Part shown: piece after piece, positions 1,487-30,977 of the stretch
How the letters are laid out: every line of letters begins with the position of its first letter
Position numbering within the stretch: the stretch's first letter is position 1
Source of the DNA: a virus
Strand: one strand, 5' to 3'
Length of the DNA: 64,000 nucleotides
Virus record (IMG/VR): IMGVR_UViG_3300036939_000084
Location: 1-64,000 of that record
The notes under the pieces: generated by a model
Told to the model about the DNA's origin: nothing
The model's database searches: none
The model's input: the letters and a program-made list of their open reading frames with translations, nothing else
Position numbers and translations under genes: made by a program

Positions 1487-1504
1487 GTGCTTGTTGTTAC
1501 ATGT

Positions 1505-1517
1505 TTATTTTATCACA
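1505..1517 (-). promoter_or_regulatory. Junction promoter for 1232-1486
   Basis: TGTGATAAAATAA on the minus strand, an extended -10 box (TG-A-TAAAAT). The downstream GTAAACAA element is degenerate here (GTAACAACA). Confidence 0.65.
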
Positions 1518-1527
1518 TTATTAGTTA

Positions 1528-1543
1528 TATTAAAACTTTAATA
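1528..1543. repeat. Junction repeat JR2 (variant core)
   Basis: TATTAAAACTTTAATA, core AC in place of GG/CC. Lies between the recD terminator and the promoter of 1232-1486. Confidence 0.7.
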
Positions 1544-1549
1544 TAAAAA

Positions 1550-1611
1550 ATCGCTCCCGTTGTGGGAGCGATCGCCTCTAATTCCGCAAACTGTTTTCGC
1601 AAATTGCAAAA
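1550..1611 (-). terminator. 3' module of recD: GCAAATTGC repeat plus HIP1 terminator
   Basis: On the minus strand the recD stop is followed by TTTTGCAATTTGCGAAAA (1594-1611), then a 9-bp stem ATCGCTCCC/GGGAGCGAT (1550-1572) overlapping a HIP1 site, then TTTTTT and JR2. Confidence 0.8.
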
Positions 1612-1613
1612 CA

Positions 1614-3803
1614 CTAGCTTTGCAGACGAGAAGCGAGCTTGGTGTTTCTGGCTTGAATCTTGTTGGTCTTCACCGCAACCTGCAAGGGCTTCTCTTCGCC
1701 GACGAGGATAACCAGCTTCTTTGCACGAGTCACACCCGTGTAAAGAAGGTTCCGCTGCAACATCATGTACTGCTGCATGGAGACAGGAATGATTACGACG
1801 GGAAACTCCGCGCCTTGGGCTTTATGCACCGAAATGCTGTAGGCCAGCATTAAGTCGCTCAAATCGGAAAAGGTGTATTTGACTAGCCGCCCTTCTGGAT
1901 TGTCCAGATCGGGGAAACGGATCTGCACCTCTTTCTCCTTGATGTCCAGCTTCTCAATCTTGCCGATGTCGCCGTTGAAGACGCGCTTGTCATAGTTGTT
2001 ATGGCATTGAATTACGCGATCACCAACCCTGAATTGCCCTTGTTCTATCTTTCCCCCAGCCTTGGGATTCCAAGCCTCTTGAATCAACTTGTTCAACTCG
2101 ATATTGCCGCAATCACCCTTATGCATGGGAGACAGACACTGAATATCGTCTTTGTTCCAACCCAACTCAGGTAGCTTCTCAGAAACCAGCCATTTGATTG
2201 CTGATGGAATTTGCCCCTGGGAACAGTTAACCCAAAGGGCGTCGGTAGTAGGAATACCAGATGAGCGACCGATTTGTTCCAGAACAGGCATCTCTCCCTT
2301 ATTAATCATTAGCGAAGCCTGGATGATGCGACTCGTTGCCGCTTGGCGGAATATTTCGGTTAGTCGAGCCACAGGAATTTCACCAGAAGCAATGATGTCC
2401 CGAAGAACGTTCCCAGCTCCCACTGACGGAAGCTGATTTACGTCGCCCACTATAGCAACTGAGGCATGGGGCGGAATAGCCTCAAACAATGCATAGGCTA
2501 GTAGCAGGTCAACCATAGAGGATTCATCGATCAGAAATGCATCACCAGGAACGGGGTTATCTCGGTTGTGCGTAAATCCGTTTCCCGTCCAGCCGAGCAA
2601 GCGATGAATTGTACTCGCATTGGTTAAGCCAGTGGCTTCTCGAATACGTTGTGCAGCTTTGCCTGTTGGCGCGATCGCGACTATTCTTTTATTAAGTTTG
2701 TGCCAATATTCGGCGATCGCTTTTGATACCGTGGATTTTCCGACGCCGGCCCCACCTGTAATTACTGTTAAACCATTCGACTCAACGGTAACAACAGCAT
2801 TCTTCTGACCTGCTGCCAACTGAATACCATTTTTGTCCTGACATTGTCGCAACCATTCATCTATACTTACTGCGTTGATTGCGCCACTAAGTTGTTTAAT
2901 CTTCTGAGCAAGTTCAACTTCTGCCTGATGGTACGAAGCCAGATAGACATCTTCCTCTTCTTCCACCAATCGTTTGTGGAACTTAGTTTTAATTGATTTG
3001 AGCTTAGTTATAGATTCTATTACTTCTTCTGTTTGAGGCTGATATCCAGGAAGAGCAATCAATTCTTTCACCATTGATTCCAGTTCGGGGCGAGGTAGGA
3101 AGCAGTGTCCATACATGTTCGCCACACCCCTCAAGACGTGAAGGATTGCAGCCTGAATGCGGATAGACGAATTTGGATCTATTTCCAGTCCAAGTGCTAC
3201 TTCATCCGCTTTTTTAAACCCAAATCCACGAACCTCTTCAGCGAGGATGTATGGATCAGCCTTGATTCTCTGAATCGAATCTTCTCTGTACTCCTTATAA
3301 ATCCGAGGAGCGTAGCTAGCCGAGACCCCAAGCTTATGTAGAAATCCGATCAATCTACTCAATCCTTTGGTTTCGTTGAAGGATTTGATAATTCCGGGCA
3401 GGTTTTTTACACCGATACCCCGAATGGTTAGGAGTTGGTCTGGATCTTCCTCAAATACGAGTAATGTATTTTCTCCAAATTTCTCAACAATTTTTCGAGC
3501 GGTAGATTCTCCCAGCCCCTTCAGGGTCGAGATATATGCGACTAGCGCTGTGTCTCCTGTTGGGTCGGGGATTTCGTAAGACACAAAATTAAACTGCTCA
3601 CCATAGCGGGGATGTGTTTTCCAGTTCCCGCGCAAGGTTACCCTTAAACCTTTTTCCGCATCTGGCATAACGCCGGATGCGGTAGTAATTTTGAAGTCGT
3701 CGTCAGCTATTCTCAGGACGACGTACCCAGTATCAGCAGCCTTGAAGGTGACAGTGTTGATAAACCCTACCAGCTCAATTGTCTGAACGCCTTGCGCTTG
3801 CAT
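1614..3803 (-). CDS. recD2: RecD2-like superfamily 1 DNA helicase
   Basis: 729 residues, the usual length of the stand-alone RecD2 family (5'-3' helicases not bound to RecBC). Seen: an N-terminal OB-like region (1-90), helix-hairpin-helix repeats (ISTLKGLGESTARKIVEKFG near 90-110, TIRGIGVKNLPGI near 127), Walker A GGAGVGKST near 350, Walker B FLIDESSMVD near 425, SVHKAQGAEF near 655 and the C-terminal YTGVTRAKKLVILVG motif. All key helicase motifs are intact. The likely role is phage DNA replication, repair or recombination in the host cytoplasm. ATG at 3803; no junction promoter sits directly upstream, and JR3 and a terminator separate it from the 3961 gene. Confidence 0.9.
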   Translation of the reverse strand: MQAQGVQTIELVGFINTVTFKAADTGYVVLRIADDDFKITTASGVMPDAEKGLRVTLRGNWKTHPRYGEQFNFVSYEIPDPTGDTALVAYISTLKGLGESTARKIVEKFGENTLLVFEEDPDQLLTIRGIGVKNLPGIIKSFNETKGLSRLIGFLHKLGVSASYAPRIYKEYREDSIQRIKADPYILAEEVRGFGFKKADEVALGLEIDPNSSIRIQAAILHVLRGVANMYGHCFLPRPELESMVKELIALPGYQPQTEEVIESITKLKSIKTKFHKRLVEEEEDVYLASYHQAEVELAQKIKQLSGAINAVSIDEWLRQCQDKNGIQLAAGQKNAVVTVESNGLTVITGGAGVGKSTVSKAIAEYWHKLNKRIVAIAPTGKAAQRIREATGLTNASTIHRLLGWTGNGFTHNRDNPVPGDAFLIDESSMVDLLLAYALFEAIPPHASVAIVGDVNQLPSVGAGNVLRDIIASGEIPVARLTEIFRQAATSRIIQASLMINKGEMPVLEQIGRSSGIPTTDALWVNCSQGQIPSAIKWLVSEKLPELGWNKDDIQCLSPMHKGDCGNIELNKLIQEAWNPKAGGKIEQGQFRVGDRVIQCHNNYDKRVFNGDIGKIEKLDIKEKEVQIRFPDLDNPEGRLVKYTFSDLSDLMLAYSISVHKAQGAEFPVVIIPVSMQQYMMLQRNLLYTGVTRAKKLVILVGEEKPLQVAVKTNKIQARNTKLASRLQS

Positions 3804-3874: not shown

Positions 3875-3890
3875 TAATAAACCTTTAATA
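3875..3890. repeat. Junction repeat JR3
   Basis: TAATAAACCTTTAATA, between the recD start and the terminator of 3961-4404. Confidence 0.85.
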
Positions 3891-3895: not shown

Positions 3896-3959
3896 ATCGC
3901 CCCCAGATGGGAGCGATCGCAAATCCTCTAATTCCCCTTGCCTTTCGCAAATTGCAAAA
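3896..3959 (-). terminator. 3' module of 3961-4404
   Basis: Minus strand: TTTTGCAATTTGCGAAA (3943-3959) directly behind the stop, then an ATCGC..CCC/GGG..GCGAT stem (3896-3917) with HIP1, then TTTTCTTATTAAAGG into JR3. Confidence 0.75.
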
Positions 3960-4994: not shown

Positions 4995-5010
4995 TATTAA
5001 AGGTTTAATA
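4995..5010. repeat. Junction repeat JR4
   Basis: TATTAAAGGTTTAATA, abutting the terminator of 5049-5333 and upstream of the gp25 promoter. Confidence 0.9.
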
Positions 5011-5432: not shown

Positions 5433-5879
5433 TTAATTAATCCGATAAAGAAGTAGACTATCTTTATCCTTACTGCCGAGACCAAGTGCGCCTAGTAGCT
5501 GTCCCCAGTACTCGAAGTCAATATCATCTAGATCTATTTCATCCCCATCGTAGGGAGAGAGGAAATGTCCTCGACCGTCTTCTGATATCGCGTCACGAAC
5601 AAATTCATCAATATCTTCGATGATTGCCGCGATTGTGTCGTTAGCACCCTCGCACTTAGTGGCTTGGAAGTTACGAATCATCTCTTCCGCTTCATAAGGA
5701 AGCTTTGAGTGTCGCAAGATAAATTCAGTATTGAAAGCCCAGAGGCTTTCTTTTACATATTCACCTGCCGCCTCATCAGCTTCTTCTTCTGAGGTTGCTA
5801 CGGCATATTCTTTGCCGTCAAATTCAAAAACTGGAAGTCCGTAGTGGTCATAACGACGCTTTTTGATTACTTCAGTCAT
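5433..5879 (-). CDS. Unknown acidic protein
   Basis: 148 residues, ATG at 5877-5879. Strongly acidic (YDGDEIDLDDIDFEYWGQ near the C-terminus; EEEADEAAGEYVKES near the N-terminus). No family, membrane segment or metal site recognised. It has the best-conserved junction promoter on this strand (5895-5920) and its own terminator. Small acidic phage proteins often bind or mimic nucleic-acid-binding host proteins, but nothing here shows that. Confidence 0.6.
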   Translation of the reverse strand: MTEVIKKRRYDHYGLPVFEFDGKEYAVATSEEEADEAAGEYVKESLWAFNTEFILRHSKLPYEAEEMIRNFQATKCEGANDTIAAIIEDIDEFVRDAISEDGRGHFLSPYDGDEIDLDDIDFEYWGQLLGALGLGSKDKDSLLLYRIN

Positions 5880-5894
5880 GATAGTTTTCTTTTG

Positions 5895-5920
5895 TTGTTT
5901 ACATATATTATTTTATCACA
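5895..5920 (-). promoter_or_regulatory. Junction promoter for 5433-5879
   Basis: TGTGATAAAATAA, 5 spacer bases, GTAAACAA, then an A-rich leader without ribosome site to the ATG at 5879. Full match to the consensus. Confidence 0.8.
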
Positions 5921-5926
5921 TTTTTA

Positions 5927-5942
5927 TATTAAATCTTTAATA
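5927..5942. repeat. Junction repeat JR5 (variant core)
   Basis: TATTAAATCTTTAATA, core TC. Between the junction promoter of 5433-5879 and the terminator of 6007-6900. Confidence 0.75.
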
Positions 5943-5945
5943 AAA

Positions 5946-6000
5946 ATAGCCCATCTATCATAGATGGGCTATCACTGCCTAATTGATTTTGCAATTTGCA
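5946..6000 (-). terminator. 3' module of 6007-6900
   Basis: Minus strand: TGCAAATTGCAAAA (5987-6000) 6 bases behind the stop, then a perfect 12-bp stem ATAGCCCATCTA/TAGATGGGCTAT (5946-5972), then TTTTTATTAAAG into JR5. Confidence 0.8.
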
Positions 6001-6006
6001 CTCATA

Positions 6007-6900
6007 CTATTCGGCTTTTCTGTCTACGATTGGGATGATATTCCGAGCCAGGGATTCTTTTACAGCGTCGAGTGGTTTCAATCCCTGATAGACGACAAGG
6101 CGTGCGCCCAGTTCTTCAACCTGGGAAATCCAGCGCAATTCGTCTGTCGTCAGTGCATCTCTCAGCTTACTCCGGTCTTTAACCTGGAGATCGAGACAAA
6201 GCTTCTTAGCTGTACGACCAAACAAGCCAATATTCAAGGCGTCAGAACAATGTTTATACATCCATTGTTTGGCGTTTTCTGAAAGTTCATCTTTGTGTTT
6301 TTCGATGTACCATTGGACAGCATCGGTCATGTCTAAGCGAACTTGCTTGCCTTCCTGTCGTTTCTTCAACCAGTCTTGGCGATCTTCTTGATCGAATTGA
6401 ATCCCAAAGGCGTCACAGAATGCTTGTTGCAATGACAATCCAGCTAAGTCAATCAATAACTCTGTAGCAGTGCCACTTCCAAGCCTTGAGCAGATCTTGA
6501 GGAACAAGGGAAGTTTTCCAACACTAAGTAAATCGGCTTTTTCGTTAGCCCCTTCAATCGAGACCTTTGGATGTACTAAAAGTCCTTGTGGAGCAAGGGT
6601 TTTAGCCTCTTCCGAAGATGCTGCGCGGATGTACCGTTTTGCTGCTTGACTCCGCTCATATTCTGGATAAGCCAAAAGAACAGCCTGTGTTTTACTAACA
6701 CCGAACTTGTTCGTTGGAGTCCATAAGTTTTCTGGCAACAAATATCCTTCGATCAAAATATTTCCAAGCGGAACTTCAGCACGAATCGCTTTTGTATTAG
6801 AATTGTCCATGTTGTTCGCCACTTGTTCTGGCGGATAGCCCCAGCCATACTTGCGATAGGGGGATGGTGAGACATCTCCTGTTTCGCGCTGGGTTTTCAC
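6007..6900 (-). CDS. Antirepressor-like protein, paralogue 1
   Basis: 297 residues from a GTG start. The last 120 residues (from EGKQVRLDMTDAVQWYIEKH on) are nearly identical to the end of 14734-15543 and closely related to 44671-45099. The N-terminal part (about 40-165, IEGYLLPENLWTPTNKFGV..) resembles the DNA-binding half of BRO/KilA-type phage antirepressors, though weakly. I infer a regulator of phage gene expression. The first 30 residues (QRETGDVS..YGWGYPP..VANNMD) are shared with the second paralogue. Internal ATG at the NMD is an alternative start. Its 5' end faces the terminase gene across 110 bases. Confidence 0.65.
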   Translation of the reverse strand: MKTQRETGDVSPSPYRKYGWGYPPEQVANNMDNSNTKAIRAEVPLGNILIEGYLLPENLWTPTNKFGVSKTQAVLLAYPEYERSQAAKRYIRAASSEEAKTLAPQGLLVHPKVSIEGANEKADLLSVGKLPLFLKICSRLGSGTATELLIDLAGLSLQQAFCDAFGIQFDQEDRQDWLKKRQEGKQVRLDMTDAVQWYIEKHKDELSENAKQWMYKHCSDALNIGLFGRTAKKLCLDLQVKDRSKLRDALTTDELRWISQVEELGARLVVYQGLKPLDAVKESLARNIIPIVDRKAE

Positions 6901-6996: not shown

Positions 6997-7012
6997 TATT
7001 AAAGGTTTAATA
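6997..7012 (+). repeat. Junction repeat JR6 on the terminase start codon
   Basis: TATTAAAGGTTTAATA; its last A is the first base of the terminase ATG. AAAGG at 7001-7005 may double as ribosome site. Confidence 0.9.
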
Positions 7013-9044: not shown

Positions 9045-9653
9045 ATGCTAGACAATTTACAAGACCTAGAAATTCAGTTAGCTCAATTACAAGCACGACT
9101 GGATTCTCATCAAGCTGTTTTCAAGGCAGAGCAAGAGCGCTTAGGGAAGGAATTTCCTAAACTGACTCAACTCAAAGATGAGGCTAAACGTCTCAATGAC
9201 GGGTGGATACCTTTTGATAAATATACCAATTTCTCAAGAAAGGAGGACGTTATCAAGTGGATCGCTAAAAAGAATATACCTTCTCCTGAAGAAACTATCG
9301 AAAAGTGGCGCGAAACCAAAAATCGCATCATTGCAACGAAGGTGGGCATGACATACGTTCAATGGAGCATATTGAACAATCTCACCTATGCAGAGTATGA
9401 AGACAGGATGTTTTGGAAAAAAAATCACAATTCGGTTTATACCGATGGTGGTCTGCATTTCTTTTACGCCGTTTTAGCAGCAGAAGAAAATTCGTTAATG
9501 GTCTACTTGGAAGGCAGAACACCTGCCGCCAAGGAGTCTGTTGTTTATCTAGCAGTACCGCCAGATGGTAATACCTACTTAGTCACAGATATTCGTTGTG
9601 AAGAGAAATACGATATTTCATCGATTCGACACGGTGAATTGAAGAGGCTCTAG
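9045..9653 (+). CDS. Unknown protein with N-terminal coiled coil
   Basis: 202 residues from ATG 9045; a GTG two codons earlier is possible but lies closer to the promoter. Residues 1-60 form heptads (LQDLEIQLAQLQARLDSH, FKAEQERLGKEFPKLTQLKD), a likely coiled coil. The rest is mixed, with YTDGGLHFFYAVLAAEENSLMVYL suggesting a compact domain. No family is recognised. It forms its own unit between a junction promoter and a terminator followed by JR7. Confidence 0.65.
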   Translation: MLDNLQDLEIQLAQLQARLDSHQAVFKAEQERLGKEFPKLTQLKDEAKRLNDGWIPFDKYTNFSRKEDVIKWIAKKNIPSPEETIEKWRETKNRIIATKVGMTYVQWSILNNLTYAEYEDRMFWKKNHNSVYTDGGLHFFYAVLAAEENSLMVYLEGRTPAAKESVVYLAVPPDGNTYLVTDIRCEEKYDISSIRHGELKRL

Positions 9654-9660
9654 TGAAGAG

Positions 9661-9686
9661 TCCGCCCCAAAAGGGGCGGATTTTTT
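9661..9686 (+). terminator. Terminator of 9045-9653
   Basis: TCCGCCCC/GGGGCGGA, 8 bp, AAAA loop, then TTTTTT. Confidence 0.9.
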
Positions 9687-9701
9687 ATTAAAGGTTTAAT
9701 A
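9686..9701 (+). repeat. Junction repeat JR7
   Basis: TATTAAAGGTTTAATA, starting in the T-run of the terminator and 16 bases before the next junction promoter: the cleanest terminator-JR-promoter junction on the plus strand. Confidence 0.9.
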
Positions 9702-9717
9702 TACTTTTTTGCTATAA

Positions 9718-9742
9718 AGTGATAAAATAATTAAGTAAACAA
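9718..9742 (+). promoter_or_regulatory. Junction promoter for 9758-10558
   Basis: AGTGATAAAATAA, ttaa, GTAAACAA. ATG follows 16 bases later without ribosome site. Confidence 0.8.
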
Positions 9743-9757
9743 GATTAAAACATTATC

Positions 9758-10558
9758 ATGACTAAAATGATCGAAAGCTTCGCAACAATGCTACTAGCTG
9801 ACGCATTTTGGAGTACATGGGAGGATGACGAGTCCGTCATTGACCTAATTACTCAAGAGGAGCGGGAAAAGTTCTGCCGCAGTTATGCTGGTTCAGGTTG
9901 CGAAATTGTTCAAGGTATGGAATGCGCTCTTGAGGATCTAGAAATAGACATCAAACCATTCCTCCCTTTAGAAGTGGTTCAACAGATTGTAGACAATGTT
10001 AATGAATTTTGGAAAAATAAATACTCAGTGGAAGAACTCCATGAGTATTGCCAGCGAGCATCTCATCGATTAATATTGGGTCGAATCGGTCATGGCGTAG
10101 ACGCTGATGACGATACCCATATCGCCGAGATGTTTGAAGAATTGGGGATATCAACTCCCCCCAGTTCCCACGAAGGAGCTTATGAGCAAGGCGAAAACCT
10201 TGCGAGCAAGGTTGAGGAAACCCTAGCCGTAAAATACGGACACCAGTGGGTTAAATATTCAACGAGTAAGTATGACATTTTAATCCTGGCTCAAAAAGCA
10301 GGTGATGGTAATTCTTACTTCTCTATTAAGGCGATGAACCGTAGCACTTTTAAATCTGACTGGGTAACAAACATGCATAGCATTGTTACCGTAACAGGTT
10401 CATCTGAATGGGAAAAAGAATTTGCAGATTGGGAGATGCCTTTTGAAGAGGCGATCGCAAAGATGCAAATCCTTGAGGACAAAATGAAAGACTCCGCTTT
10501 TATGGAATGGTTTCACAAAGACTTAGAGTCTGACGAAGAAGAGTTTGAGTGGAACTAG
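9758..10558 (+). CDS. Unknown acidic protein
   Basis: 266 residues, acidic, ending in DLESDEEEFEWN. Hydrophobic and charged residues alternate without membrane segments; a Gly/Ser-rich break near 130-145 (GISTPPSSHEGAYEQGE) suggests two domains. The second half (VKYSTSKYDILILAQKAGDGNSYFSIKAMN) looks like a beta-rich fold. No family is recognised. Single-gene unit with its own junction promoter and terminator. Confidence 0.65.
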   Translation: MTKMIESFATMLLADAFWSTWEDDESVIDLITQEEREKFCRSYAGSGCEIVQGMECALEDLEIDIKPFLPLEVVQQIVDNVNEFWKNKYSVEELHEYCQRASHRLILGRIGHGVDADDDTHIAEMFEELGISTPPSSHEGAYEQGENLASKVEETLAVKYGHQWVKYSTSKYDILILAQKAGDGNSYFSIKAMNRSTFKSDWVTNMHSIVTVTGSSEWEKEFADWEMPFEEAIAKMQILEDKMKDSAFMEWFHKDLESDEEEFEWN

Positions 10559-11688: not shown

Positions 11689-11704
11689 TATTAAAGGTTT
11701 ATTA
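11689..11704 (+). repeat. Junction repeat JR9
   Basis: TATTAAAGGTTTATTA, 3 bases before the start codon at 11708. Confidence 0.85.
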
Positions 11705-11707: not shown

Positions 11708-13987
11708 ATGGTCAACTCTGCCAATCCTCTCGTTAATTCTGTCAATACCGTCTTCAATACTTCCAACCCGCTCGACGTTCAACCCAACGATTTGGGCGTG
11801 AAATTCATGGCACCTGCGAGCCAGACAGATCCTCGCGTTCCCGTGGCTGAAGAATTTGCCCTTTCATCGGAAATCTTCATCGAGTTGTGGCGCTCATCTC
11901 GCAGGCAGGGGTGGAATACTCTTCCTAAATTTGAAACCAATATCCGCAAATTAAAAATCCTCGGACGCGCCCAGCTAAAGATTTATAGGGATACCTTAAG
12001 TCTGGATACATCAATTACGGTACCTGCATTAGAAAACACAGGCTCAACTATTAAGCGGGACGACTACCTGAGCCTGGTTTCGTTTTGTGCAGAGGTGGGC
12101 GCTATTCAAGATGCAACGCTGGGGCAAATTACTTTTCGCTACCGCCACCCTTTAAACCAAACGATTGAGACTATTCAGAAGGAAAACTCGCGCCGATATC
12201 GTTCTTTTTGGATGTTAGTACTTACATCAAATATTCCAACTGTGGACACATTGCTCAGTGGGATGACGACGGAGGCGAATGGGGATAGGAGACTCGCGAT
12301 CGCCAACACATTAGAAACCGGATTCCCCCTCACCCCAGGAGTCCAGGTTTACGCCAGAGACGCTCGCTTAACCAGTGGTGTCGCCTACACGGTTGTTCCC
12401 GAATCCATTGAGTTTCTCCCCTTGTGTCTGATTCGCAGATTGCAAAACTATCAAGAAGATGGCTTCACCTATGGGTATGGCGGGGAAGAGCCGCTAGAGG
12501 TGGGAGTATCTGTAATTAGTCTTGCTAAGCCGCTAGAATCGGGCGAGATTATGAATCGTGTGCGGGGGCGGATACAGGATATCTGTGCAGGTGTGCCGGG
12601 TCAAGGCAGTAGCTATAAGCGTACAATCCTTAACCTGGTGGCCGGTCAGGTGGCAGGGAATCCAGGTAAAGCAGGGCAGTCGGCAAGTTCTCCCAACGGT
12701 TCAGTTTGCCTTGCGAACGACCAAAGAGTGACGTTTACCAACCAGGCTGTTTCTCAGCGGTGGTCTGTGGTTCGGGTAACGGCAGGAAATGGAGGAGCGG
12801 GTTCTGGTGGTAAGCTTAGGGGTTTGCTCGCTGTTGGTCTCAATACGAATGCTCCGTCTGGTTCAGTGTTCAGCGAAGTCAGAGAAGACCATAAAATCTA
12901 TACGGCTGATGGAGTAGAACAGTCTTCACTGGGGACGTTTTCCAACCTAGGTGGCAGCGGTTCGTTGCAATGGCTAGCTGGGGAGAACTCTTCAATTCTT
13001 CCCGGCATGGTTGCGTATTTCGTGCCATCGGTTCGGTATCCTGCGGGCAGCGGCTTTAATTTGCCTTTTGCAAAATGCGAAAAAGTGTGGAAGGATGGGG
13101 CGGCGATCGCGCCTGAAAACATTCGCCAGGGATACGAAGGAGATATTGACGGGTATCAAGACCCAGCTGGTAACGAAGCTTTTCTGGTAATCGTTGGGTC
13201 GGAACGGGCGGCACTGCACTATATCTATAAGAAAGTGATTATTACAACCGATGGTAGTGGGGCTGCGGTTATTCCTCCCAACGAGTCGGGCTGCTTTGCT
13301 TTTATCCAGGGGCGAACAGGAAGAATTAATTCTCCTGTTTGCACAGGGCTTAAACAGAATACGGCTTATCAAGCGCTGATTTATTACCCTCCCCGCTCCA
13401 CTGAGTCTTGGCAATTCCAATTCACCTATTGTGAATATCAGGGGATGGGATTGAATAATCCTGACTGGGTTGATGGTGCGACAGTCGTTTCACCCGCTTT
13501 ATTCTTCATCCACACCCAGGGTGGGGGATTAAGCGTTCATCAGGGACAGGCGGCAACTCGGTACTCTCCGATCTCATTTCACCTCCCTTCGGTTACGAAC
13601 CCTCCGTCGCCCAGCTATAACTTTGATGCCCCGACTCAACTTGCGGGCGAACCTTATCTGGGGCCGGACACCAATCGGGAGTTGCCTTTAATGTCGGGGT
13701 TTGGTTTGGCTATTCCGACACCTGGGCAGAATCTTAGTCTTCAGAAGAATAGTGGAGTGCAGGCGCGATCGCTCAATGCCACTCTTCTCACCAACAATCA
13801 ACCTGTGGGTTTTCGCACTCCAACCCTGCAAAGCAAAGCCCCCTTCCAAGCGGTGATGTACTTCGCTGCTCAGAAAGGGGAGGATGTGAGGTTAATTATT
13901 GTGACTTACAACTCGCCTGGAACCGATGGCGTAAATGTGGTTGCAAATTCTCAGGCGGGGGCGGCTATCGACTTGTTCCGGTTGTAA
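11708..13987 (+). CDS. Large virion structural protein, unassigned
   Basis: 759 residues, Gly/Ser/Asn/Pro-rich and beta-rich, with a degenerate NSVNTVFNTSNPL start, no signal peptide and no catalytic motif. Residues 50-200 are more helical (SSEIFIELWRSSRRQGWNTLPKFETNIRK), the middle is glycine-rich (TAGNGGAGSGGKLRGLL) and the end is repetitive strand/loop sequence. This composition and the JR9-linked start, shared with terminase, hub and fibre genes, fit a tail or baseplate component. Which one cannot be told from the sequence. HIP1 sites are frequent. Overlaps the next start by one base (TAATG). Confidence 0.65.
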   Translation: MVNSANPLVNSVNTVFNTSNPLDVQPNDLGVKFMAPASQTDPRVPVAEEFALSSEIFIELWRSSRRQGWNTLPKFETNIRKLKILGRAQLKIYRDTLSLDTSITVPALENTGSTIKRDDYLSLVSFCAEVGAIQDATLGQITFRYRHPLNQTIETIQKENSRRYRSFWMLVLTSNIPTVDTLLSGMTTEANGDRRLAIANTLETGFPLTPGVQVYARDARLTSGVAYTVVPESIEFLPLCLIRRLQNYQEDGFTYGYGGEEPLEVGVSVISLAKPLESGEIMNRVRGRIQDICAGVPGQGSSYKRTILNLVAGQVAGNPGKAGQSASSPNGSVCLANDQRVTFTNQAVSQRWSVVRVTAGNGGAGSGGKLRGLLAVGLNTNAPSGSVFSEVREDHKIYTADGVEQSSLGTFSNLGGSGSLQWLAGENSSILPGMVAYFVPSVRYPAGSGFNLPFAKCEKVWKDGAAIAPENIRQGYEGDIDGYQDPAGNEAFLVIVGSERAALHYIYKKVIITTDGSGAAVIPPNESGCFAFIQGRTGRINSPVCTGLKQNTAYQALIYYPPRSTESWQFQFTYCEYQGMGLNNPDWVDGATVVSPALFFIHTQGGGLSVHQGQAATRYSPISFHLPSVTNPPSPSYNFDAPTQLAGEPYLGPDTNRELPLMSGFGLAIPTPGQNLSLQKNSGVQARSLNATLLTNNQPVGFRTPTLQSKAPFQAVMYFAAQKGEDVRLIIVTYNSPGTDGVNVVANSQAGAAIDLFRL

Positions 13988-14682: not shown

Positions 14683-14731
14683 AGCCCACCAGAAGGTGAG
14701 CGATTGTAATTTGGTTTTGCAATTTGCAAAA
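14683..14731 (-). terminator. 3' module of 14734-15543
   Basis: Minus strand: stop, TTTTGCAAATTGCAAAA (14715-14731), then GCTCACC/GGTGGGC and TTTTTTT (14683-14702). No JR follows; the promoter of 14250-14621 comes next. Confidence 0.8.
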
Positions 14732-14733
14732 GA

Positions 14734-15543
14734 CTATTCGGCTTTTCTGTCTACGACCGGGATGATATTCCGAGCCAGGGATTCTTTTACAGCGTCCAGT
14801 GGTTTCAATCCCTGATAAACAACAAGGCGAGCACCTAGTTCTTCAACCTGGGAAATCCATCGGAGTTCGTCTGCGGTGAGCGCGTCTCTCAACTTACTCC
14901 GATCCTTGACATTGAGATCGATGCAAAGCTTTTTGGCGGTACGACCAAACAAGCCAAGGTTTAAAGCATCTGAACAGTGTTTGTACATCCACTGCTTCGC
15001 GTTTTCCGAAAGTTTGTCTTTGTGCTTTTCGATATACCACTGGACGGCATCGGTCATGTCTAAGCGAACTTTCTTCCCTTCTTCCCTTGCCTGGAATCGC
15101 TCATTCCGTTCTTGTTCCGTTCGGAAAATCCCGAAGGCTTTGTCTGCTCGACGCTCAATGGACTCGGTGTTAGATGCGATCAACATACTCAGGGCTTTTT
15201 GATTGCCCTGAAGTGCGAAATGTCCCCAAATATGTCCAGCGTCTTCTATTGAGACGGTTTGAGCTTTTCTTGCTTTTGCCTCATTTTGAATAGAAACAGA
15301 CAAACGCGAACCTCTAAAACCCCTTTCTAGTAAGGAATTCAGGATGTTTTTCTTCTTTGACGCTAACTCCGAAAACCAGTTGGGTTTTTCGTTTATTCGC
15401 TCCAGCACCTGGGACTGGCTGAGCCTGTACTCGCCATATTCCGCTTGATACTTATCTTCAATGCGGAAAACTTCCAATTGCTCTGAGCCATGTTGGATTA
15501 CAACACGCTCAGCTTTTGCGATAATATCCATGTTGTTCGCCAC
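14734..15543 (-). CDS. Antirepressor-like protein, paralogue 2
   Basis: 269 residues from the ATG at 15541-15543. The last 120 residues (from RLDMTDAVQWYIEKHKDKLS) match paralogue 1 at all but a few positions, while the N-terminal half (RVVIQHGSEQLEVFRIEDKYQAEYGEYRLSQ..) is unrelated to it, so the C-terminal module has been combined with a different sensor or DNA-binding half. Upstream the QRETGDVS..YGWGYPP..VAN peptide of paralogue 1 is still encoded in frame, but the GTG start there has become GTA, so I start at the first good ATG. Likely regulatory role by analogy with phage antirepressors. Confidence 0.6.
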   Translation of the reverse strand: MANNMDIIAKAERVVIQHGSEQLEVFRIEDKYQAEYGEYRLSQSQVLERINEKPNWFSELASKKKNILNSLLERGFRGSRLSVSIQNEAKARKAQTVSIEDAGHIWGHFALQGNQKALSMLIASNTESIERRADKAFGIFRTEQERNERFQAREEGKKVRLDMTDAVQWYIEKHKDKLSENAKQWMYKHCSDALNLGLFGRTAKKLCIDLNVKDRSKLRDALTADELRWISQVEELGARLVVYQGLKPLDAVKESLARNIIPVVDRKAE

Positions 15544-15706: not shown

Positions 15707-15722
15707 TATTAAACATTTAATA
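15707..15722. repeat. Junction repeat JR10 (variant core)
   Basis: TATTAAACATTTAATA, core CA; directly upstream of the junction promoter at 15727. Confidence 0.7.
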
Positions 15723-16488: not shown

Positions 16489-16504
16489 TATTAAACCTTT
16501 ATTA
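16489..16504. repeat. Junction repeat JR11
   Basis: TATTAAACCTTTATTA, between a small-gene terminator and the sheath operon promoter. Confidence 0.85.
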
Positions 16505-20138: not shown

Positions 20139-21640
20139 ATGCCCATCCAACTCAACAAAGCAGTATTAGAACAAAACATCTTTACCAAGGCAAACCAGAC
20201 CCTAACCATCACGGGTCTAGGCAGGATGCTCATCTTGAGTCGAGATGCCATTACCTTAGAACAACCAACCATTGAATTGGCAGAGTGCGACTCGTTCGCA
20301 GCCTAATACATAAGCTGCGGTGAGAATGACAAGGTAGAACCTTGAAAATTCCATAACTGTTCCTTGGATGGAGGTGCAAATCCTCCCCTTCAAGGTTAGA
20401 AGTGACTCCCTATCTGTCCACGCCGAGGTTAATCACCAGAGCGAAGCTGGAAGCAGGGCGCAATCAGAGCTGAAACAGATTAAGCACACTGGCGCTAATG
20501 GGGAGATACTATGGTGAACTTAATGTGAAGCACCTGAAAAAACGCCTTAACACAGAGCAAGAATCTGTTCATATCTTGACTCAACCATCTGTAAACTCGC
20601 AGTAGAGCTGCCAATAACTGTATAACCATGAGTTGGTGGTAGGCGAAGTGGTGACACCTAAGGTATCAAAACAATCTAAGGAACGGAACGAGGAAAAACG
20701 TCACCGACTTTGTGGGGTTGACAACCTACATGGGAGGTCGTGATTAAACTTCTATCGGAAGGTGACGGGTAGGATGGGGGAATGAAACTACCCCCGGCAA
20801 CCGAGAAGTCTAGGAATGGATTAGACTATGCGTAGACAGCCTGCTATACCTAATACCAAGAAGGATAACAGTATGACTGACGCGGACGGGCAACCTGCCA
20901 AGGTTCGATGAATGGCTAAGAAAGGACTAGATGGAACACAGGCAAGAAAATACAGGGAAACACATGTCATGCAAGTAAGTTGGAAGAGTTGACCTCGAAA
21001 GACTTAAGACGGTGACAAGGTGGAAGTCAATTCCTGAAAACAGCTTGTGAATGGGATTTATGGGTATGTTGCCCAGTTACCCGGTGGTTGCTAGGAGCCG
21101 GATGCGGTGAAAATCGCACGTCCGGTTTTGAAGGAGAGGTGCATCACAGCAATGTGGACATCGACTCTAACCAAAACAAATGTCCCAGGTGGTCGTAACA
21201 ACCCAGGCGAATTTAACTGTGTCGTGCAATTAGCTCACGATGACATGCGGCGCAAAATGATTTCTTGGTACCATCAATGCTTAAACTATGGCAACGGCGT
21301 TAACCCGAACTACAAAAAGCCTGCGCTGTTAACTTTCAACAGGCATTTCCAGGGTGCGCCTGATGCTCAGTTTGGGAACGGCTCCTCCGCTCGCAACCCC
21401 TTGAACGTCACGATTCTGGGCACATGGCCTAAGTCGTGCGAGATTCCGGAATACTCAATGAGTGATGGAGATGACGGTGACGCTGATTGTCAGCTGACAC
21501 TGAACCTGTCCTACGATGATCTGGAGTTTGAGAGCGGAGAGGTTGATGCCCTAGGTGCTCTTAGTGGCTATCAGTCTTCCCGTAGTGTCACTCAGAATGT
21601 CGCGGGTAACGTGACTGGATTCTTGGGCGTTGGTGGCTAG
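20139..21640 (+). CDS. Tail tube protein, gene split by a group II intron
   Basis: Exon 1 is 20139-20284 and exon 2 is 21172-21640. Joined, they give one frame of about 204 residues through ..QPTIELA-D-KTNVPGGRNNPGEFNCVVQL. Exon 1 alone would stop at 20306 inside the intron. Position directly behind the sheath, the size and the beta-rich sequence (LNVTILGTWPKSCEIPEYSM, DADCQLTLNLSYDDLEFESGEVDAL) fit the gp19-like tube subunit that forms the DNA channel. The 3' half has a polar glycine-rich tail (VAGNVTGFLGVGG). Without splicing no complete tube would be made, so splicing must be efficient. The tube role is inferred from context. Confidence 0.75.
20285..21171 (+). mobile_element. ORF-less group II intron in the tail tube gene
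   Basis: Starts GTGCGACTCG (20285), the conserved 5' end of bacterial group II introns. Domain V is seen at 21094-21127 (GAGCCGGATGCGGTGAAAAT, then CGCACGTCCGGTTT), followed by a short domain VI and an end in AC at 21171. An 8-base exon-binding site CTGCCAAT (20608-20615) is complementary to ATTGGCAG (20276-20283) just before the splice site. Length 887 bases with no reverse transcriptase/maturase ORF, so a maturase in trans is needed for mobility and perhaps splicing. Confidence 0.85.
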
Positions 21641-21708: not shown

Positions 21709-21724
21709 TATTAAAGGTTTAATA
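21709..21724 (+). repeat. Junction repeat JR12
   Basis: TATTAAAGGTTTAATA between two back-to-back terminators of converging units. Confidence 0.9.
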
Positions 21725-22659: not shown

Positions 22660-23925
22660 TCAGTTCTTTCCCTTACGGGCTTTGCCAGACGACTTGCAAT
22701 GCAGGCTTGCGCCAACATTGTAGAGGTCGAGCTGTTCCTGAGCGTTAATTCCCGTGTGCCCCACGGTATTTTTTCCTAACATCTCAAGCGCTCTCATTAA
22801 GATGTTGATTGCTGCGTTCTCGTCCCTGTCCAACACAGTTCCACATTTACAAACGTGAGTTCTAACGGACAGCGATTTTTTTACGGTTATTCCGCATCCT
22901 GAGCAGTTTTGACTCGTGTGATGAGGAGGAACAGCAACGACAACTTTATCAAACACCTTGGCAAAATATTCAAGCCACTCCCGAAACAAAGACCAACTAG
23001 CATCACTAATAGATAGTGCAAGCCTGCGGTTTTTTATCATGTTTCGGACTTTCAGATCTTCATAGGCTACCAAATCGCTAGATTGGATTACGCACCTTGC
23101 GGTCTTCACCACAAAGTCTTTACGTCGCCTACTTACTTCTAAATGTTTCCGAGCAACCTGAACTCTTGTCTTGTGATAGCGCTTGGACTGGGGTTTCTTA
23201 GTCTTGACCATCTTCTCGCCTTTTTTCCCTTTGTTGGGATTCCTATATCTACGAGAAAGTCGTCGTTGCGACTTCTTCAGCTTCTTGTGAGCTTTCCGTA
23301 GATGGCGAGGATTATCAACTTTTTTCCCATTAGAATCGGTCAAGAAATGGGTTAAACCTACGTCTATTCCAATCTCATTTCCAGTATATTGAGACTTCTC
23401 TTTTCTCTCAACATCAACACAAAACTGAGCGTAGTAACCATCAGCTCTTTTTACAATTCTGATGCGCTTTATCTGCTTGATGTCATAGAAATTAAGGTCA
23501 CGAGTTCCTTTGAGCTTAAAGCTTCCAGCTTCAAAACCATCCGTCAGAGTCAGGGTTTTCCTGTCCTTAGATAGCTTCCAGCCACTGGTCTTGTATTCAA
23601 CCGAACGACTGTGCTTCTTAAAATTAGGAAATCCCTTTTTCCCAGGTTTATGAGCCTTGCAGTTATCAAAAAATCGACTAATGGCAAACCAGGTTCGGTC
23701 AGCATGAGCTTGACGAGCCATTGAGTTGAGCTTTTTTGCCCAAGGGAACTCCATATTGGAGGCTAAGACCGCACAGTATTTCTGTAGGTCATTTTTAGTT
23801 GTGCCTTTATTATCCATCCAGTACTTGAGGCAAGAATTTCTAATAAATTGCCCCGTCCGAATCGCCTCATCAAGTTTGGCGAATTGGACAGAACTACCTT
23901 TCAACTTGCTCTCAAATACCAGCAA
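22660..23925 (-). CDS. tnpB: TnpB, RNA-guided nuclease of IS200/IS605
   Basis: 421 residues. TnpB cuts DNA guided by an RNA made from the element's right end and helps keep the element. The RuvC-like catalytic residues are present: D in EIGIDVGLTHFLTD, E in VAYEDLKVRN, D in DRDENAAINI. The zinc ribbon is complete (CSGCG..CKCG). Length is usual. The guide RNA should cover the gene's 3' end and the 22635-22655 hairpin and read its guide from the flank near 22625. Very similar to 33907-35190, especially from residue 60 to 350. Confidence 0.9.
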   Translation of the reverse strand: MLVFESKLKGSSVQFAKLDEAIRTGQFIRNSCLKYWMDNKGTTKNDLQKYCAVLASNMEFPWAKKLNSMARQAHADRTWFAISRFFDNCKAHKPGKKGFPNFKKHSRSVEYKTSGWKLSKDRKTLTLTDGFEAGSFKLKGTRDLNFYDIKQIKRIRIVKRADGYYAQFCVDVERKEKSQYTGNEIGIDVGLTHFLTDSNGKKVDNPRHLRKAHKKLKKSQRRLSRRYRNPNKGKKGEKMVKTKKPQSKRYHKTRVQVARKHLEVSRRRKDFVVKTARCVIQSSDLVAYEDLKVRNMIKNRRLALSISDASWSLFREWLEYFAKVFDKVVVAVPPHHTSQNCSGCGITVKKSLSVRTHVCKCGTVLDRDENAAINILMRALEMLGKNTVGHTGINAQEQLDLYNVGASLHCKSSGKARKGKN

Positions 23926-23968
23926 TGTGTGATCTCCGCTATGATTATTGATTATACAATAATTGTCT

Positions 23969-24364
23969 ATGAATCAGCAATACCGACACAATCGGCACTC
24001 GGTTTCCTTGATGAACTTTCATTTCGTCTGGATTCCTCGTAGACGAAGGAAGGTACTTATCGGTGAGGTAGCAACAAGATTGGAGGAAATCATCAAAGAA
24101 GTCTGTTCTGAACTAAGTCTCAACATACTGGCAATGGAGATTATGCCAGACCATATCCACTTATTTGTCAGCTGTCCTCCTAGTATCGCTGCCGACCAGA
24201 TTATGTTCAGAATCAAAGGTCGCAGTTCTAGGGTTTTAAGAAAAGAGTTTTCTCACTTACTAAAAATGCCGTCGATGTGGACGCGAAGTTACTTCGTTTC
24301 GACGGCAGGTAATGTTTCAACAGAAACCATTAAACGGTACATAGCTGAACAGCGGAAAGACTGA
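23969..24364 (+). CDS. tnpA: TnpA, Y1 HUH transposase
   Basis: 131 residues from ATG 23969 (TTG two codons earlier is possible). The HUH motif is DHIHLFV and the catalytic tyrosine lies in TETIKRYIAEQ; SMWTRSYFVSTAGNVSTETIKRY is the family's usual C-terminal block. It cuts and joins single-stranded element ends at the subterminal hairpins. Divergent from tnpB with 43 bases between starts. It is the only transposase of this type in the window, so it could also mobilise the two tnpB-only elements. Confidence 0.9.
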   Translation: MNQQYRHNRHSVSLMNFHFVWIPRRRRKVLIGEVATRLEEIIKEVCSELSLNILAMEIMPDHIHLFVSCPPSIAADQIMFRIKGRSSRVLRKEFSHLLKMPSMWTRSYFVSTAGNVSTETIKRYIAEQRKD

Positions 24365-26180: not shown

Positions 26181-28814
26181 CTAGAACTGGACTCGATCAA
26201 CTGTAAAGCCACTCCCCACCTCATCGGGAAATAGGATAGTCATTTGTGCTAGTGCCTCTGCTTGTGTTCCAACGCGGAAGTAATAAGCCTGTCTCAATGA
26301 GACATCCGTTTCTGGTAAGTAAAGTGCATTACGGGTGCAGCGATACCAAACGAGGGATTGGAGACGAGCGACAGAAGTACTGAGAGACGTGATCGCCGCC
26401 TGTTGAGCCACATTGTCATTACCAAGCTGGGTCACAGAGGCATTGAGAGAAGCGATCGCCCCCTCTTGAACCACCTTGTCTTCCCCAACCCTAGTTCGGA
26501 AGGTCACGAAGTCATCCCAGAATCGGTAGAGATAGTCCGTTACTCTCACTCCCTCCAGGTATACCCCATCTGGTGATACCTCAATTCCCCGTTCCAATCC
26601 TGTTGCTCCAATTTCAACTCGGTCGTCAAGGGCAGAGATGTGAGAGATGCTCTTCCCCTCTTCATCCTTGTTAGCGAGACTAATCCCCTCCTTGGGATGC
26701 AGAAACATGCCCGCTACCTTCTGCCCCTCTTGCAGAATTTTCATTGCCATCGGCAGCTGGGATAGGAAACCACCACCAAGTGCGTCAAAACCGAACCCAC
26801 CCCAAGGACTGGTAGCACCCACCCCCATTGCCCCAGCGAAAACCTTGCTTACTCCCCCCGGTGCCAGTAACTGACTTACAGCCTTCTGCACTTCTACCGC
26901 AGCTCCAATTCCATTGCTTGATGCAGTCATCTTTGCTGCTTGGTCAGTTAGTTTGAGCATTCCTCCGCCGCCACGACTGGGCGTACTACTAGCCACCTTC
27001 TGAGACTGATGGAATCCTTGCTTGAGTAGAGGTTTGAGCTTTTCGGCTAACGGCTGAATCGCCTGATTGATGGTGTCTTTAATACTGGAATCTTTTGCGA
27101 TATCCAGAGGAGAACTTGCGATCGCCTCTCCCAACACACTCCCCGCCTTCAAGTCATTGAGTAGTGATTGAATTTGAGGGATGCCTTGAACCAGGGGCTG
27201 AGCTTGGGTAAAAGTTGCAGCGGCATCCGAGATAAAAGAAGACTGAACGCCTGCAACAAGGGATGGAATATCTTTGTTGAGCAGGCTAGTCTTAATGGCT
27301 TCTGGCGTAATTGGCAGATTACTGGGTATCTGCTCTTGGACTTTGAGCACCTGAGACTCAACAAAGGAGTCAACATTAAATCCTTGTAGAAGATATTGTG
27401 GTTCAAGTGTTCTAGGGTTTGTGGTGGCAGAGCGTGTAAAATTTTTTAGAGCAGTAGGCAAGCCCTTAAGGTCGATTGCGCTTAGAGGGCTACCTTGAAG
27501 TGAGTTGAAGGCATCCAATACTTCATGAGTTTCATTAATGATTGATTGCATGGGTGCGATCGCCTTATGCAGTCCCATCTCTACCAAATTTTCAACCTCT
27601 CCCAACCCACCAGGGATAACTTTGTCTAATAAACCTTTAATAAGAATATCGGGGTTGTATTGAAGCCCCTTAATAAGGGGAGCCGCTTCTTCCAGTAAGC
27701 CGTGGATGTTTTCTGGGAGCACACCCTTAAGATTGGTCACCAGCTCCTCTGGATTGTTGAATCCACCCCGTACTACGTTTTCCACAGTCGTGGCGAGGTC
27801 GCCGACGTTGCTGCCTAGGATTTGATCGAGTTGAGGTGTGATCGCTTCTGCTAAATCAGAGGTCTTCAGCGACCCTAATTCATTTAATGCGGCTAGTCCC
27901 TGGTCGAATCCTGTTCCCAGCGTTCCTTGCACTTGGTCTAAGATCTCGGTTGCTTCGGACAGTACCTGAGATATGGGGTTGCCAGGAATGTTTTTGGCTA
28001 CGTCGTCCAGTTGGTCTAAGAGGCGGTTGGTAACACCGAGTTTACTGAAGATGCCTGATTTGAGGGAGGAGAGGTTGGAAGCGATCGCATTCACAGGTCC
28101 TGTTAGGTTAGCCTCGCCATTCTGCAATTTCAGGGATGCCTTCTTCGCATTTTGCAAAAGCACTTCCCCGTTTTCGTGGAGTTGGTGAACCGCACCAGCT
28201 GCGTTTTTCTGACTAATCTCGCCTTTGGGAGTTTGACTAATGCTGCTTAAGGGGGTTTCCGAAATGATGTTGCCGTCGAATGCCAACGTGTTACGAGCAC
28301 CGCCGATGGTTTGTTCGACTATACTGCCTTCCTTGGACTCTGTTCGGGCGATTCCGGTCGCAGCAACAAATCGTATCTTGGCAGAGTTGGGTACGTCATG
28401 GGATTCGATCGTACCGTCATGGGTTTGGAATCCGTACATCCCCAGTGAGCGATCATGTTCTGGGGAGGGGGGATCGACTTTGTTGTGCAAGAATCCCATG
28501 CAGATCCATTTGTCTGGCCTACCAAGGACGGGGATGAGGAAGGCGAGTGAACCTTCGGTGACGGGTGCGATCGCGCCTCCTGGTGAGGAATTGCACGTAA
28601 AGGAACTTAGAACTTCGATAAATCCGTCTTCTCCGTTCGGCAGGTCGTGTACTGGGTCAATCAAGTCGCACTTGCACTTGACTCTCCCCCTTTTTAAGGG
28701 GTCTTTGATACTGGTAACGACAGCGGGAACGCCGCCCATGACAAAACCTTCTGCGAGGTGCGTGGCGTAGCTACGTGGATCTTCGGGGTGGGTAAGGCGT
28801 TGGAGGGGGAGCAT
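26181..28814 (-). CDS. Baseplate spike protein, gp5/gpV-like OB-fold
   Basis: 877 residues. Residues about 27-112 form the OB-fold of phage spike/baseplate assembly V proteins (GGVPAVVTSIKDPLKRGRVKCKCDLID..GSLAFLIPVLGRPDKWICMGFLHN), followed by the start of a beta-helix-like region. The middle 250-650 is an unusually long helical stretch of leucine-rich segments (IPSNLPITPEAIKTSLLNKDIPSL type), then a C-terminal part with a coiled coil (LNASVTQLGNDNVAQQAAITSLSTSV). The spike pierces the cell envelope when the sheath contracts. A terminator hairpin stands just before its ATG. JR13 lies inside the coding sequence. Confidence 0.75.
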   Translation of the reverse strand: MLPLQRLTHPEDPRSYATHLAEGFVMGGVPAVVTSIKDPLKRGRVKCKCDLIDPVHDLPNGEDGFIEVLSSFTCNSSPGGAIAPVTEGSLAFLIPVLGRPDKWICMGFLHNKVDPPSPEHDRSLGMYGFQTHDGTIESHDVPNSAKIRFVAATGIARTESKEGSIVEQTIGGARNTLAFDGNIISETPLSSISQTPKGEISQKNAAGAVHQLHENGEVLLQNAKKASLKLQNGEANLTGPVNAIASNLSSLKSGIFSKLGVTNRLLDQLDDVAKNIPGNPISQVLSEATEILDQVQGTLGTGFDQGLAALNELGSLKTSDLAEAITPQLDQILGSNVGDLATTVENVVRGGFNNPEELVTNLKGVLPENIHGLLEEAAPLIKGLQYNPDILIKGLLDKVIPGGLGEVENLVEMGLHKAIAPMQSIINETHEVLDAFNSLQGSPLSAIDLKGLPTALKNFTRSATTNPRTLEPQYLLQGFNVDSFVESQVLKVQEQIPSNLPITPEAIKTSLLNKDIPSLVAGVQSSFISDAAATFTQAQPLVQGIPQIQSLLNDLKAGSVLGEAIASSPLDIAKDSSIKDTINQAIQPLAEKLKPLLKQGFHQSQKVASSTPSRGGGGMLKLTDQAAKMTASSNGIGAAVEVQKAVSQLLAPGGVSKVFAGAMGVGATSPWGGFGFDALGGGFLSQLPMAMKILQEGQKVAGMFLHPKEGISLANKDEEGKSISHISALDDRVEIGATGLERGIEVSPDGVYLEGVRVTDYLYRFWDDFVTFRTRVGEDKVVQEGAIASLNASVTQLGNDNVAQQAAITSLSTSVARLQSLVWYRCTRNALYLPETDVSLRQAYYFRVGTQAEALAQMTILFPDEVGSGFTVDRVQF
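27627..27642. repeat. Junction repeat JR13 inside the spike gene
   Basis: TAATAAACCTTTAATA, read on the minus strand as codons for ILIKGLL in a helical linker region of the spike. Confidence 0.8.
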
Positions 28815-28823
28815 GAAAGAAAA

Positions 28824-28842
28824 ACGCTCCGATATGGAGCGT
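28824..28842 (-). terminator. Leader terminator of the spike gene
   Basis: ACGCTCC/GGAGCGT followed on the minus strand by TTTTCTTTC and ATG; it also is the only terminator for 28893-29090. Confidence 0.75.
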
Positions 28843-28892
28843 TGGTTTAGGTTACTGATGCTAATTTTCTCAGATTTGAAATTGCCTGAAGA

Positions 28893-29090
28893 TTAGTCAA
28901 AAACCAGCCACAAACTTAAATAATATTCAACACAGCAAGTTTCTTCATTTCTAAATGAATAAATCCAAGTAAATCCATTCCAGGATGAGTTACTAATTAC
29001 GGCTTGTCTGCTCAGGGTTTCAATATTAACAGTTTGCCCTATTTTGAATCTAGGTATTGTACTTCCAGGTTTTTTAAATGTTGCAGCCAT
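28893..29090 (-). CDS. Small unknown protein
   Basis: 65 residues, ATG at 29088-29090. A beta-rich peptide (GSTIPRFKIGQTVNIETLSRQAVISNSSWNGFTWIYSF..CCVEYYLSLWLVF) reminiscent of a small SH3-like barrel, but no family is claimed. A weak junction promoter (TAGTAATAAAATAA) lies at 29111-29138. The spike gene follows on the same strand 78 bases on. Confidence 0.55.
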   Translation of the reverse strand: MAATFKKPGSTIPRFKIGQTVNIETLSRQAVISNSSWNGFTWIYSFRNEETCCVEYYLSLWLVFD

Positions 29091-29110
29091 ATTGTATCTT
29101 ACTTATTTGC

Positions 29111-29138
29111 TTAGTTGTTATTTTTTATTTTATTACTA
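29111..29138 (-). promoter_or_regulatory. Weak junction promoter for 28893-29090
   Basis: TAGTAATAAAATAA then AATAACAACTAA; both elements deviate from consensus. Confidence 0.4.
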
Positions 29139-29156
29139 AAATCAAAGATTAAGCAG

Positions 29157-29183
29157 AAAAAACACCCGAAATGGGTGTTTTTT
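29157..29183 (-). terminator. Terminator of 29194-29829
   Basis: AACACCC/GGGTGTT flanked by A and T runs. Confidence 0.8.
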
Positions 29184-29193
29184 CTTGGCAGAA

Positions 29194-29829
29194 TTAAGCG
29201 CGATCGCGCTTAATTCTCGCAATACTTCGCTGTGTATCTTCCACTATCTGAGATATTTCCTCCATGTCTGAAGCAAGAACATGTTTTTTAAGCTCCTCAA
29301 AAACCACATCCATGCTTACTTGATGATTGAGTAATAGCAAAAGGATATCATTCTCGTAAAGTGCCGCTCTTGTGAAATTACCCTGTCTGTACATAGACGG
29401 GATAGCGTATAGTTTTAAAACAACCAATCCTTCCACGGATATAATCCGTATTGTTCGTCCATTGATTTCAGTTTCAGATACATAGTCCTCTTGTGCTTTT
29501 TTGAACAAAGGATTAGTAGTAAGTAACAAATCTACCTGAAGTCCCTCAAATTCACCTCTGGCAAAATTTTTATCCTCTCCAGATAGGATTATTTCTGGGA
29601 TTGACTCCAAGTCTTTCCTAGACATCACAAAATCGATATCTTGAGTATTGCGTCCCTCAACATATGACAGCATTGCAATACCGCCTACCAATACGTATTC
29701 TATTTTTCGTTCTTCTAGTATCTCGAACAGTAGTTCTATTGCTTCTGGTAAATTTACGGGACTAGGCATTTCTTTCTTCCAATTTTTGAGATCGAACAAA
29801 GTTCCATTAAAAATTGCATCGGCAATCAT
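29194..29829 (-). CDS. Nucleotidyltransferase-fold protein
   Basis: 211 residues. The polymerase-beta-type nucleotidyltransferase signature is seen at about 45-67: VLVGGIAMLSYVEGRNTQDIDFVM (GG..A and the DID metal-binding pair), and a third acidic position in LQVDLLL near 98. This is the pattern of the AbiEii/MNT-like group, which transfers nucleotides to tRNA or partner proteins in toxin-antitoxin and phage-defence systems. No antitoxin-like partner is adjacent; the gene is a single unit with a junction promoter. A role against competing phages or in host control is inference. Confidence 0.7.
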   Translation of the reverse strand: MIADAIFNGTLFDLKNWKKEMPSPVNLPEAIELLFEILEERKIEYVLVGGIAMLSYVEGRNTQDIDFVMSRKDLESIPEIILSGEDKNFARGEFEGLQVDLLLTTNPLFKKAQEDYVSETEINGRTIRIISVEGLVVLKLYAIPSMYRQGNFTRAALYENDILLLLLNHQVSMDVVFEELKKHVLASDMEEISQIVEDTQRSIARIKRDRA

Positions 29830-29850
29830 GTTTAGTCGCTGTAGTTTTTA

Positions 29851-29863
29851 TAATTTTATCACA
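29851..29863 (-). promoter_or_regulatory. Junction promoter for 29194-29829
   Basis: TGTGATAAAATTA on the minus strand; GTAAACAA reduced to CTAAACA next to the ATG. Confidence 0.6.
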
Positions 29864-29867
29864 TTTT

Positions 29868-29883
29868 TATTAAAGGTTTAATA
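29868..29883 (+). repeat. Junction repeat JR14
   Basis: TATTAAAGGTTTAATA between divergent genes 29194-29829 and 29982-30920. Confidence 0.9.
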
Positions 29884-30920: not shown

Positions 30921-30928
30921 GTTTCTTA

Positions 30929-30975: not shown

Positions 30976-30977
30976 GA

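Follow-up and report, generated by a model that had tools for sequence, protein, structure and literature searches.

We find that a 16-bp palindrome, JR (T(A/T)(A/T)TAAA-CC-TTTA(A/T)(A/T)A, or TWWTAAA-CC-TTTAWWA), is a phage-specific site repeated ∼40–60 times across two related genomes. With a probability of about 0.6, JR is bound throughout the genome by a dimeric DNA-binding protein specific to these phages and would act as an operator and probably also as a stoperator-like roadblock; in the same reading, the gene junctions that often carry it are compact transcription-unit borders built from independent signals and not copies of one linker.

The DNA analyzed here (the window) is bases 1–64,000 of a virus record of 107,263 bases (G000) and encodes a large terminase (TerL), tail and baseplate proteins, a RecD-like helicase, DnaB, a primase, a sliding clamp, and ParA. 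A filamentous cyanobacterium is the probable host, because the HIP1 octamer is abundant, a group II intron fragment is Crinalium-like, and the genome matches listed for the record's TnpB protein are cyanobacterial. The intron fragment (20285–21171, with Rfam RF00029 at 21093–21171) shares 84% DNA identity with Crinalium plasmids and interrupts a gene of the tail region whose counterpart in the relative (83151–83738, 195 aa) is intact. TnpB/IscB-like genes are unusually many (22660–23925, 33907–35190, and 58945–60174 in the window; 94871–96070, 100700–101788, and 102647–103930 further along the record), and some adjoin IS200 (23963–24364) or IS607-type recombinases. Two 300-nt direct repeats, 95% identical, lie at 35266–36291 inside ORF 35236–36813.

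Our comparison rests on one relative, G001 (103,060 bases), whose TerL is 84% identical to that of the record. The tail/terminase half of the two genomes is syntenic and the remainder is almost completely different; within the syntenic core, equivalent slots hold almost entirely different cargo genes. Searches of viral contigs with TerL, capsid, and sheath, and searches of phages, plasmids, and genomes, returned only G001 and distant TerL matches. Gene calls follow a simple longest-ORF rule, and chance expectations of motif counts are means of 100 first-order Markov shuffles. G001 contains an 18-kb ORF (26498–44584, 6028 aa), and several ORFs near it share an N-terminal motif like FEWDKKNSWVNRGxDGKF; its 49754–50599 protein matches the BstA abortive-infection family (PHROG 6287, E = 1.6e-34).

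JR occurs at 42 sites in the record and at 59 in G001, with 34 and 50 exact copies, respectively, versus none in 100 shuffles. The site is sharply bounded: nearly all 16 positions are invariant save arm position 3, and the flanks are only slightly T-rich or A-rich. JR does not accumulate in any of 386 cyanobacterial genomes (0–3 copies per genome, comparable to a reversed control), and a host motif was rejected on this ground. As a repeat it is likewise absent from the related Nostoc phage-like plasmid pC052_F and from G017, a prophage whose terminase is related, and scans of viral contigs with the JR and promoter patterns gave multiple matches in G001 alone, among the matches listed.

JR gathers in gene junctions because these are the main non-coding room: 36 of the 42 copies in the record and 42 of the 59 in G001 overlap intergenic DNA, against expectations of 16 and 11% (p = 5e-23 and 6e-28). 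It is found at 35 of the 122 junctions of the record and 41 of the 106 of G001, and uses tandem, divergent, and convergent junctions alike, its centre (CC versus GG) showing no orientation bias relative to tandem genes (13:8 and 15:11). In tight operons JR forms the entire gap, and TAATAAAGGTTTATTATG includes both the stop (TAA) of the first gene and the start (ATG) of the second. JR at 41289–41304 fills the whole gap between a gene end at 41288 and a gene start at 41304 and is absent at the orthologous G001 junction; the copy at 53333–53348, with a CG centre, overlaps one gene's stop and the next gene's ATG. The last A of JR at 6997–7012 is the A of the TerL ATG, JR at 51455–51470 overlaps the ATG of 51470–52165, and JR at 55481–55496 overlaps the end of 53348–55486 and lies 4 nt ahead of the start of 55501–56913. 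Two copies sit just ahead of starts, at 40023–40038 (2 nt from a baseplate gene) and 11689–11704 (3 nt from the ATG of 11708–13987; orthologous to G001 74919, with the centre flipped). JR at 21709–21724 lies between convergent genes, and further copies are found at 1112–1127, 4995–5010, 15707–15722, 16489–16504 (orthologous to G001 79495), 43710–43725 (orthologous to G001 102702, centre flipped), and 46096–46111.

Within genes we count 6 copies in the record and 17 in G001, six of which lie in the 18-kb ORF. JR at 27627–27642, inside gene 26181–28814, is kept at the orthologous codons in G001 (91194), and another copy (62532–62547) lies inside gene 61897–63444. Of 20 intragenic copies, 18 share a single codon phase, and these copies encode either KPLL or KGLL according to the centre, which argues that selection acts on the DNA. 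JR copies are spaced more evenly than uniform placement would give, clearly in G001 (CV 0.65, P = 0.0004) and weakly in the record (P = 0.02).

The phage promoter consists of an extended −10 element followed by a conserved probable transcript start (TGTGATAAAATA-N5-GTAAACA) and is located ∼20–30 nt ahead of the start codon. GTAAACA is conserved in most phage promoters of both genomes, and transcripts probably start at its G. JR lies upstream of 18 of the 49 promoters, about two thirds of which have none. In these 18 cases the distance to the −10 motif is 2–26 nt, mostly 2–11 nt, and JR never occurs within 40 nt downstream; it thus covers the −35 region, an operator position. On the minus strand, JR at 5927–5942 lies 6 nt upstream of an extended −10 (5910–5920), a pair conserved with G001 65856–65885, and the same pairing is seen at 29853–29883 (−10 at 29853–29863, JR at 29868–29883), 31479–31512 (conserved with G001 96382–96415), 31835–31868 (a second copy), and 44164–44197. 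On the plus strand, JR at 61134–61149 is followed by an extended −10 at 61161–61171. With a simple and rather crude terminator detector, we find a terminator preceding JR at 9 junctions in each genome and a terminator solely after JR at 3 in G001. The composite of terminator, JR, and promoter is present at roughly ten junctions across the two phages.

A sequence-only reading of the window had taken these elements for a common linker of a cassette system, with stop codon, GCAAWTTGC palindrome, HIP1 terminator, JR, promoter, and next gene in one fixed order. Junction 1487–1613 (minus strand) indeed holds all five parts in that order between the stop of recD (1614–3803) and the start codon at 1484–1486. 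The palindrome GCAATTTGC (1595–1611) lies just 3′ of the recD stop; the HIP1 octamer GCGATCGC (1568–1575) overlaps the stem of an intrinsic terminator read from the sequence (ATCGCTCCC/GGGAGCGAT plus a T-run, 1545–1572, minus strand); JR TATTAAAACTTTAATA, with the centre variant AC, occupies 1528–1543; and the extended −10 promoter TGTGATAAAAT for gene 1232–1486 is found at 1507–1517 on the minus strand. The other junctions brought forward for this order depart from it in different ways. Junction 5879–6007 has every part (GCAAWTTGC at 5987–6003) except HIP1. Between 3804 and 3960, JR (3875–3890) and GCAAWTTGC (3943–3959) lie upstream of recD, with no TGTGATAAAAT promoter reading toward it, and at 57251–57316 GCAAWTTGC (57254–57270, 3 nt past a stop) and JR (57301–57316) lie between convergent genes with no promoter, the next gene (57405–57653) being on the opposite strand. 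As for the partial forms, 9653–9758 lacks GCAAWTTGC and has JR (9686–9701) flanked by a terminator and by a −10 variant (AGTGATAAAAT); 14683–14734 has GCAAWTTGC (14715–14731) and no JR nearby; 30920–30978 has GCAAWTTGC alone (30929–30945), between convergent genes; and at 61561–61625 JR (61578–61593) stands ahead of a hairpin, contrary to the claimed order.

In a survey of all same-strand junctions 25 nt or longer, made with the simple terminator detector, the complete order was found at 1 of 57 in the 107-kb record (the recD junction itself) and at 0 of 40 in G001, which rules out a five-part linker; 21 of the 57 carry none of the five parts. The earlier reading was right that unrelated genes on either strand draw on the same parts, and parts occur inside genes as well. 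The two outcomes that the earlier reading had itself named as speaking against a common linker were both found: the order is not kept beyond junction 1487–1613, and divergence of the parts does not follow gene gain and loss. In the record, exact JR (34 copies), promoter (22), GCAAWTTGC (17), and HIP1 (102) are all above their shuffle means (0, 0.12, 1.8, and 1.0). Between the record and G001 the promoter count is the same (22 and 22), GCAAWTTGC falls from 17 to 4, HIP1 goes from 102 to 137 and JR from 42 to 59 sites, and JR is gained, lost, or flipped at orthologous junctions. As the part counts change separately, a single inherited linker is refuted by the criterion that the earlier reading had set.

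HIP1 is spread genome-wide and was dismissed as a junction part: 30 of 102 copies are intergenic in the record (15% of DNA intergenic) and 19 of 137 in G001 (10%). GCAAWTTGC (TTYGCAAWTTGCRAA) is a second dispersed palindrome in the record (for example at 62492, 62507, 81667, 87692, and 90933), with about half of its copies within genes, and is nearly absent in G001. A terminator ahead of a promoter is expected, since stop, terminator, promoter, and start must follow each other at any transcription-unit border. The linker-cassette reading is thus largely replaced by a dispersed palindrome together with ordinary terminators and promoters; a strongly conserved real site can pass for a linker where a compact genome offers little other room.

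About ten orthologous junctions hold JR in both phages despite diverged surrounding DNA. At roughly half of these the centre is flipped between CC and GG; elsewhere JR has been gained or lost. At arm position 3, T prevails in the record and A in G001 (p = 6e-13), which holds for either arm and for the shared as well as the unshared halves. Such a concerted change across the full set of sites, in either half-site, fits a trans-acting dimeric protein whose specificity has shifted; comparable divergence of repressor and stoperators has been described for L5-clade mycobacteriophages (PMC6550527). Two points speak against the binding-site reading: the strictly asymmetric CC/GG centre, which is unusual for a simple dimer site, and the lack of JR at about two thirds of the promoters.

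A partial protein search found no JR-binding protein, lysogeny repressor, or integrase, and no integrase was recognized among the proteins scanned. A lead only is provided by a predicted regulator family shared by the two phages, with three paralogues in the window (6007–6900, 14734–15543, and 44671–45099) and one member in G001 (92883). Its AlphaFold model (6007) is of low confidence (pLDDT 67) and has no PDB match at E ≤ 0.001. Paralogues 6007 and 14734 have the gene start and the C-terminal half in common and a swapped middle, and their similarity drops at the GCAATTTGC palindrome past the stop (just beyond 5987–6003 for 6007).

We infer the following mechanism. A transcription-unit border would consist of a terminator after the stop codon and the phage-specific extended −10 (TGTGATAAAAT) ahead of the next start. 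A putative phage-specific homodimeric DNA-binding protein would bind the dispersed JR sites; next to a promoter, binding over the −35 region would block or, less likely, recruit RNA polymerase. Promoter-free copies at gene ends, in convergent gaps, and inside long genes would act as roadblocks to elongation as stoperators do, for which there is established precedent (PMC6550527, PMC9283540). More tentatively, JR may belong to a new, orientation-free class of genome-wide DNA-binding systems in cyanophages, in which one phage protein represses promoters and blocks or organizes the whole genome. JR provides an exact 16-bp bait for finding the regulator.

A considerably less probable account is that terminator-JR-promoter composites are mobile regulatory cassettes, which travel with small cargo genes and supply short homology for modular shuffling. 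This has been proposed for the PeSL promoter-terminator cassettes of T4-type phages, which Arbiol (2010) and Comeau (2014) reportedly described. The composite does recur at unrelated cargo genes in both phages, nearly all cargo differs between the same core genes, and DNA similarity stops at JR or at the post-stop palindrome at several core-gene borders. However, cargo genes are not regularly flanked by JR on both sides, most JR copies lie outside the composite, some of them inside genes, and similarity would just as well end at JR if nothing but functional sites were conserved. PeSL-like shuffling may occur at composite junctions.

It is rather unlikely that JR is a genome-organizing site for partition, condensation, packaging, or replication instead of a transcription site. 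The fairly even spacing of ∼2 kb, the copies in the 18-kb ORF and in convergent gaps, and the lack of strand bias would all suit such a role, but it does not account for 18 copies just upstream of −10 boxes and none just downstream, and ParA, detected in the record, has no detected relative in G001. There is little to recommend a translation or late-promoter element at structural-gene starts: the distance from JR to the start is exactly −1 in 11 of 71 cases and 2–4 nt in 8 more, and a GG centre yields AAAGG, which is similar to a Shine-Dalgarno sequence, but CC is a common centre at these positions too, and JR is no less present away from starts, between convergent genes, and inside genes. Least probable is a site-specific recombination site serving cassette exchange, which the inverted arms around a two-base asymmetric centre and its flipping at about half of the orthologous sites might suggest, as the arms are short for known recombinases, we found no conserved recombinase, and core gene order and orientation are largely kept although JRs occur in both orientations.

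Among known systems, integron-like cassettes would have a recombination site at every cassette end and an integrase, whereas JR marks a minority of junctions and also lies inside genes. The octamer in these phage terminators is the HIP1 of cyanobacteria, but HIP1 is a genome-wide host motif and not junction-specific. The SAS/ESAS elements of cluster K mycobacteriophages (PMC3203893) are, like JR, repeated junction sequences near starts; about half have an associated inverted repeat, and the SAS consensus shifts between relatives. SAS are linked to translation starts, however, and nearly always have the same orientation, unlike JR. PeSLs (PMC4503421) combine a terminator stem-loop with an early promoter directly after it, between small cargo genes in variable regions, an arrangement that a minority of our junctions have; the JR palindrome comes in addition, mostly outside composites and also inside genes.

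The closest likeness is with the stoperators of cluster A mycobacteriophages such as L5 and Bxb1 (PMC6550527), which comprise tens of dispersed sites, some in promoters and most not, with a phage-specific consensus that differs between relatives. JR likewise exceeds 20–30 dispersed, mostly promoter-free sites, with 18 copies by a promoter, and is more numerous per genome. Stoperators are asymmetric and oriented with transcription, whereas JR is palindromic and its centre shows no such orientation; they are bound by a known monomeric immunity repressor that blocks elongation (PMC9283540), whereas the binder of JR is putative. Genome-wide repression via dispersed sites is well documented in actinobacterial phages, and a counterpart built on a palindrome in large phages of cyanobacteria would point to more than one origin of this strategy.
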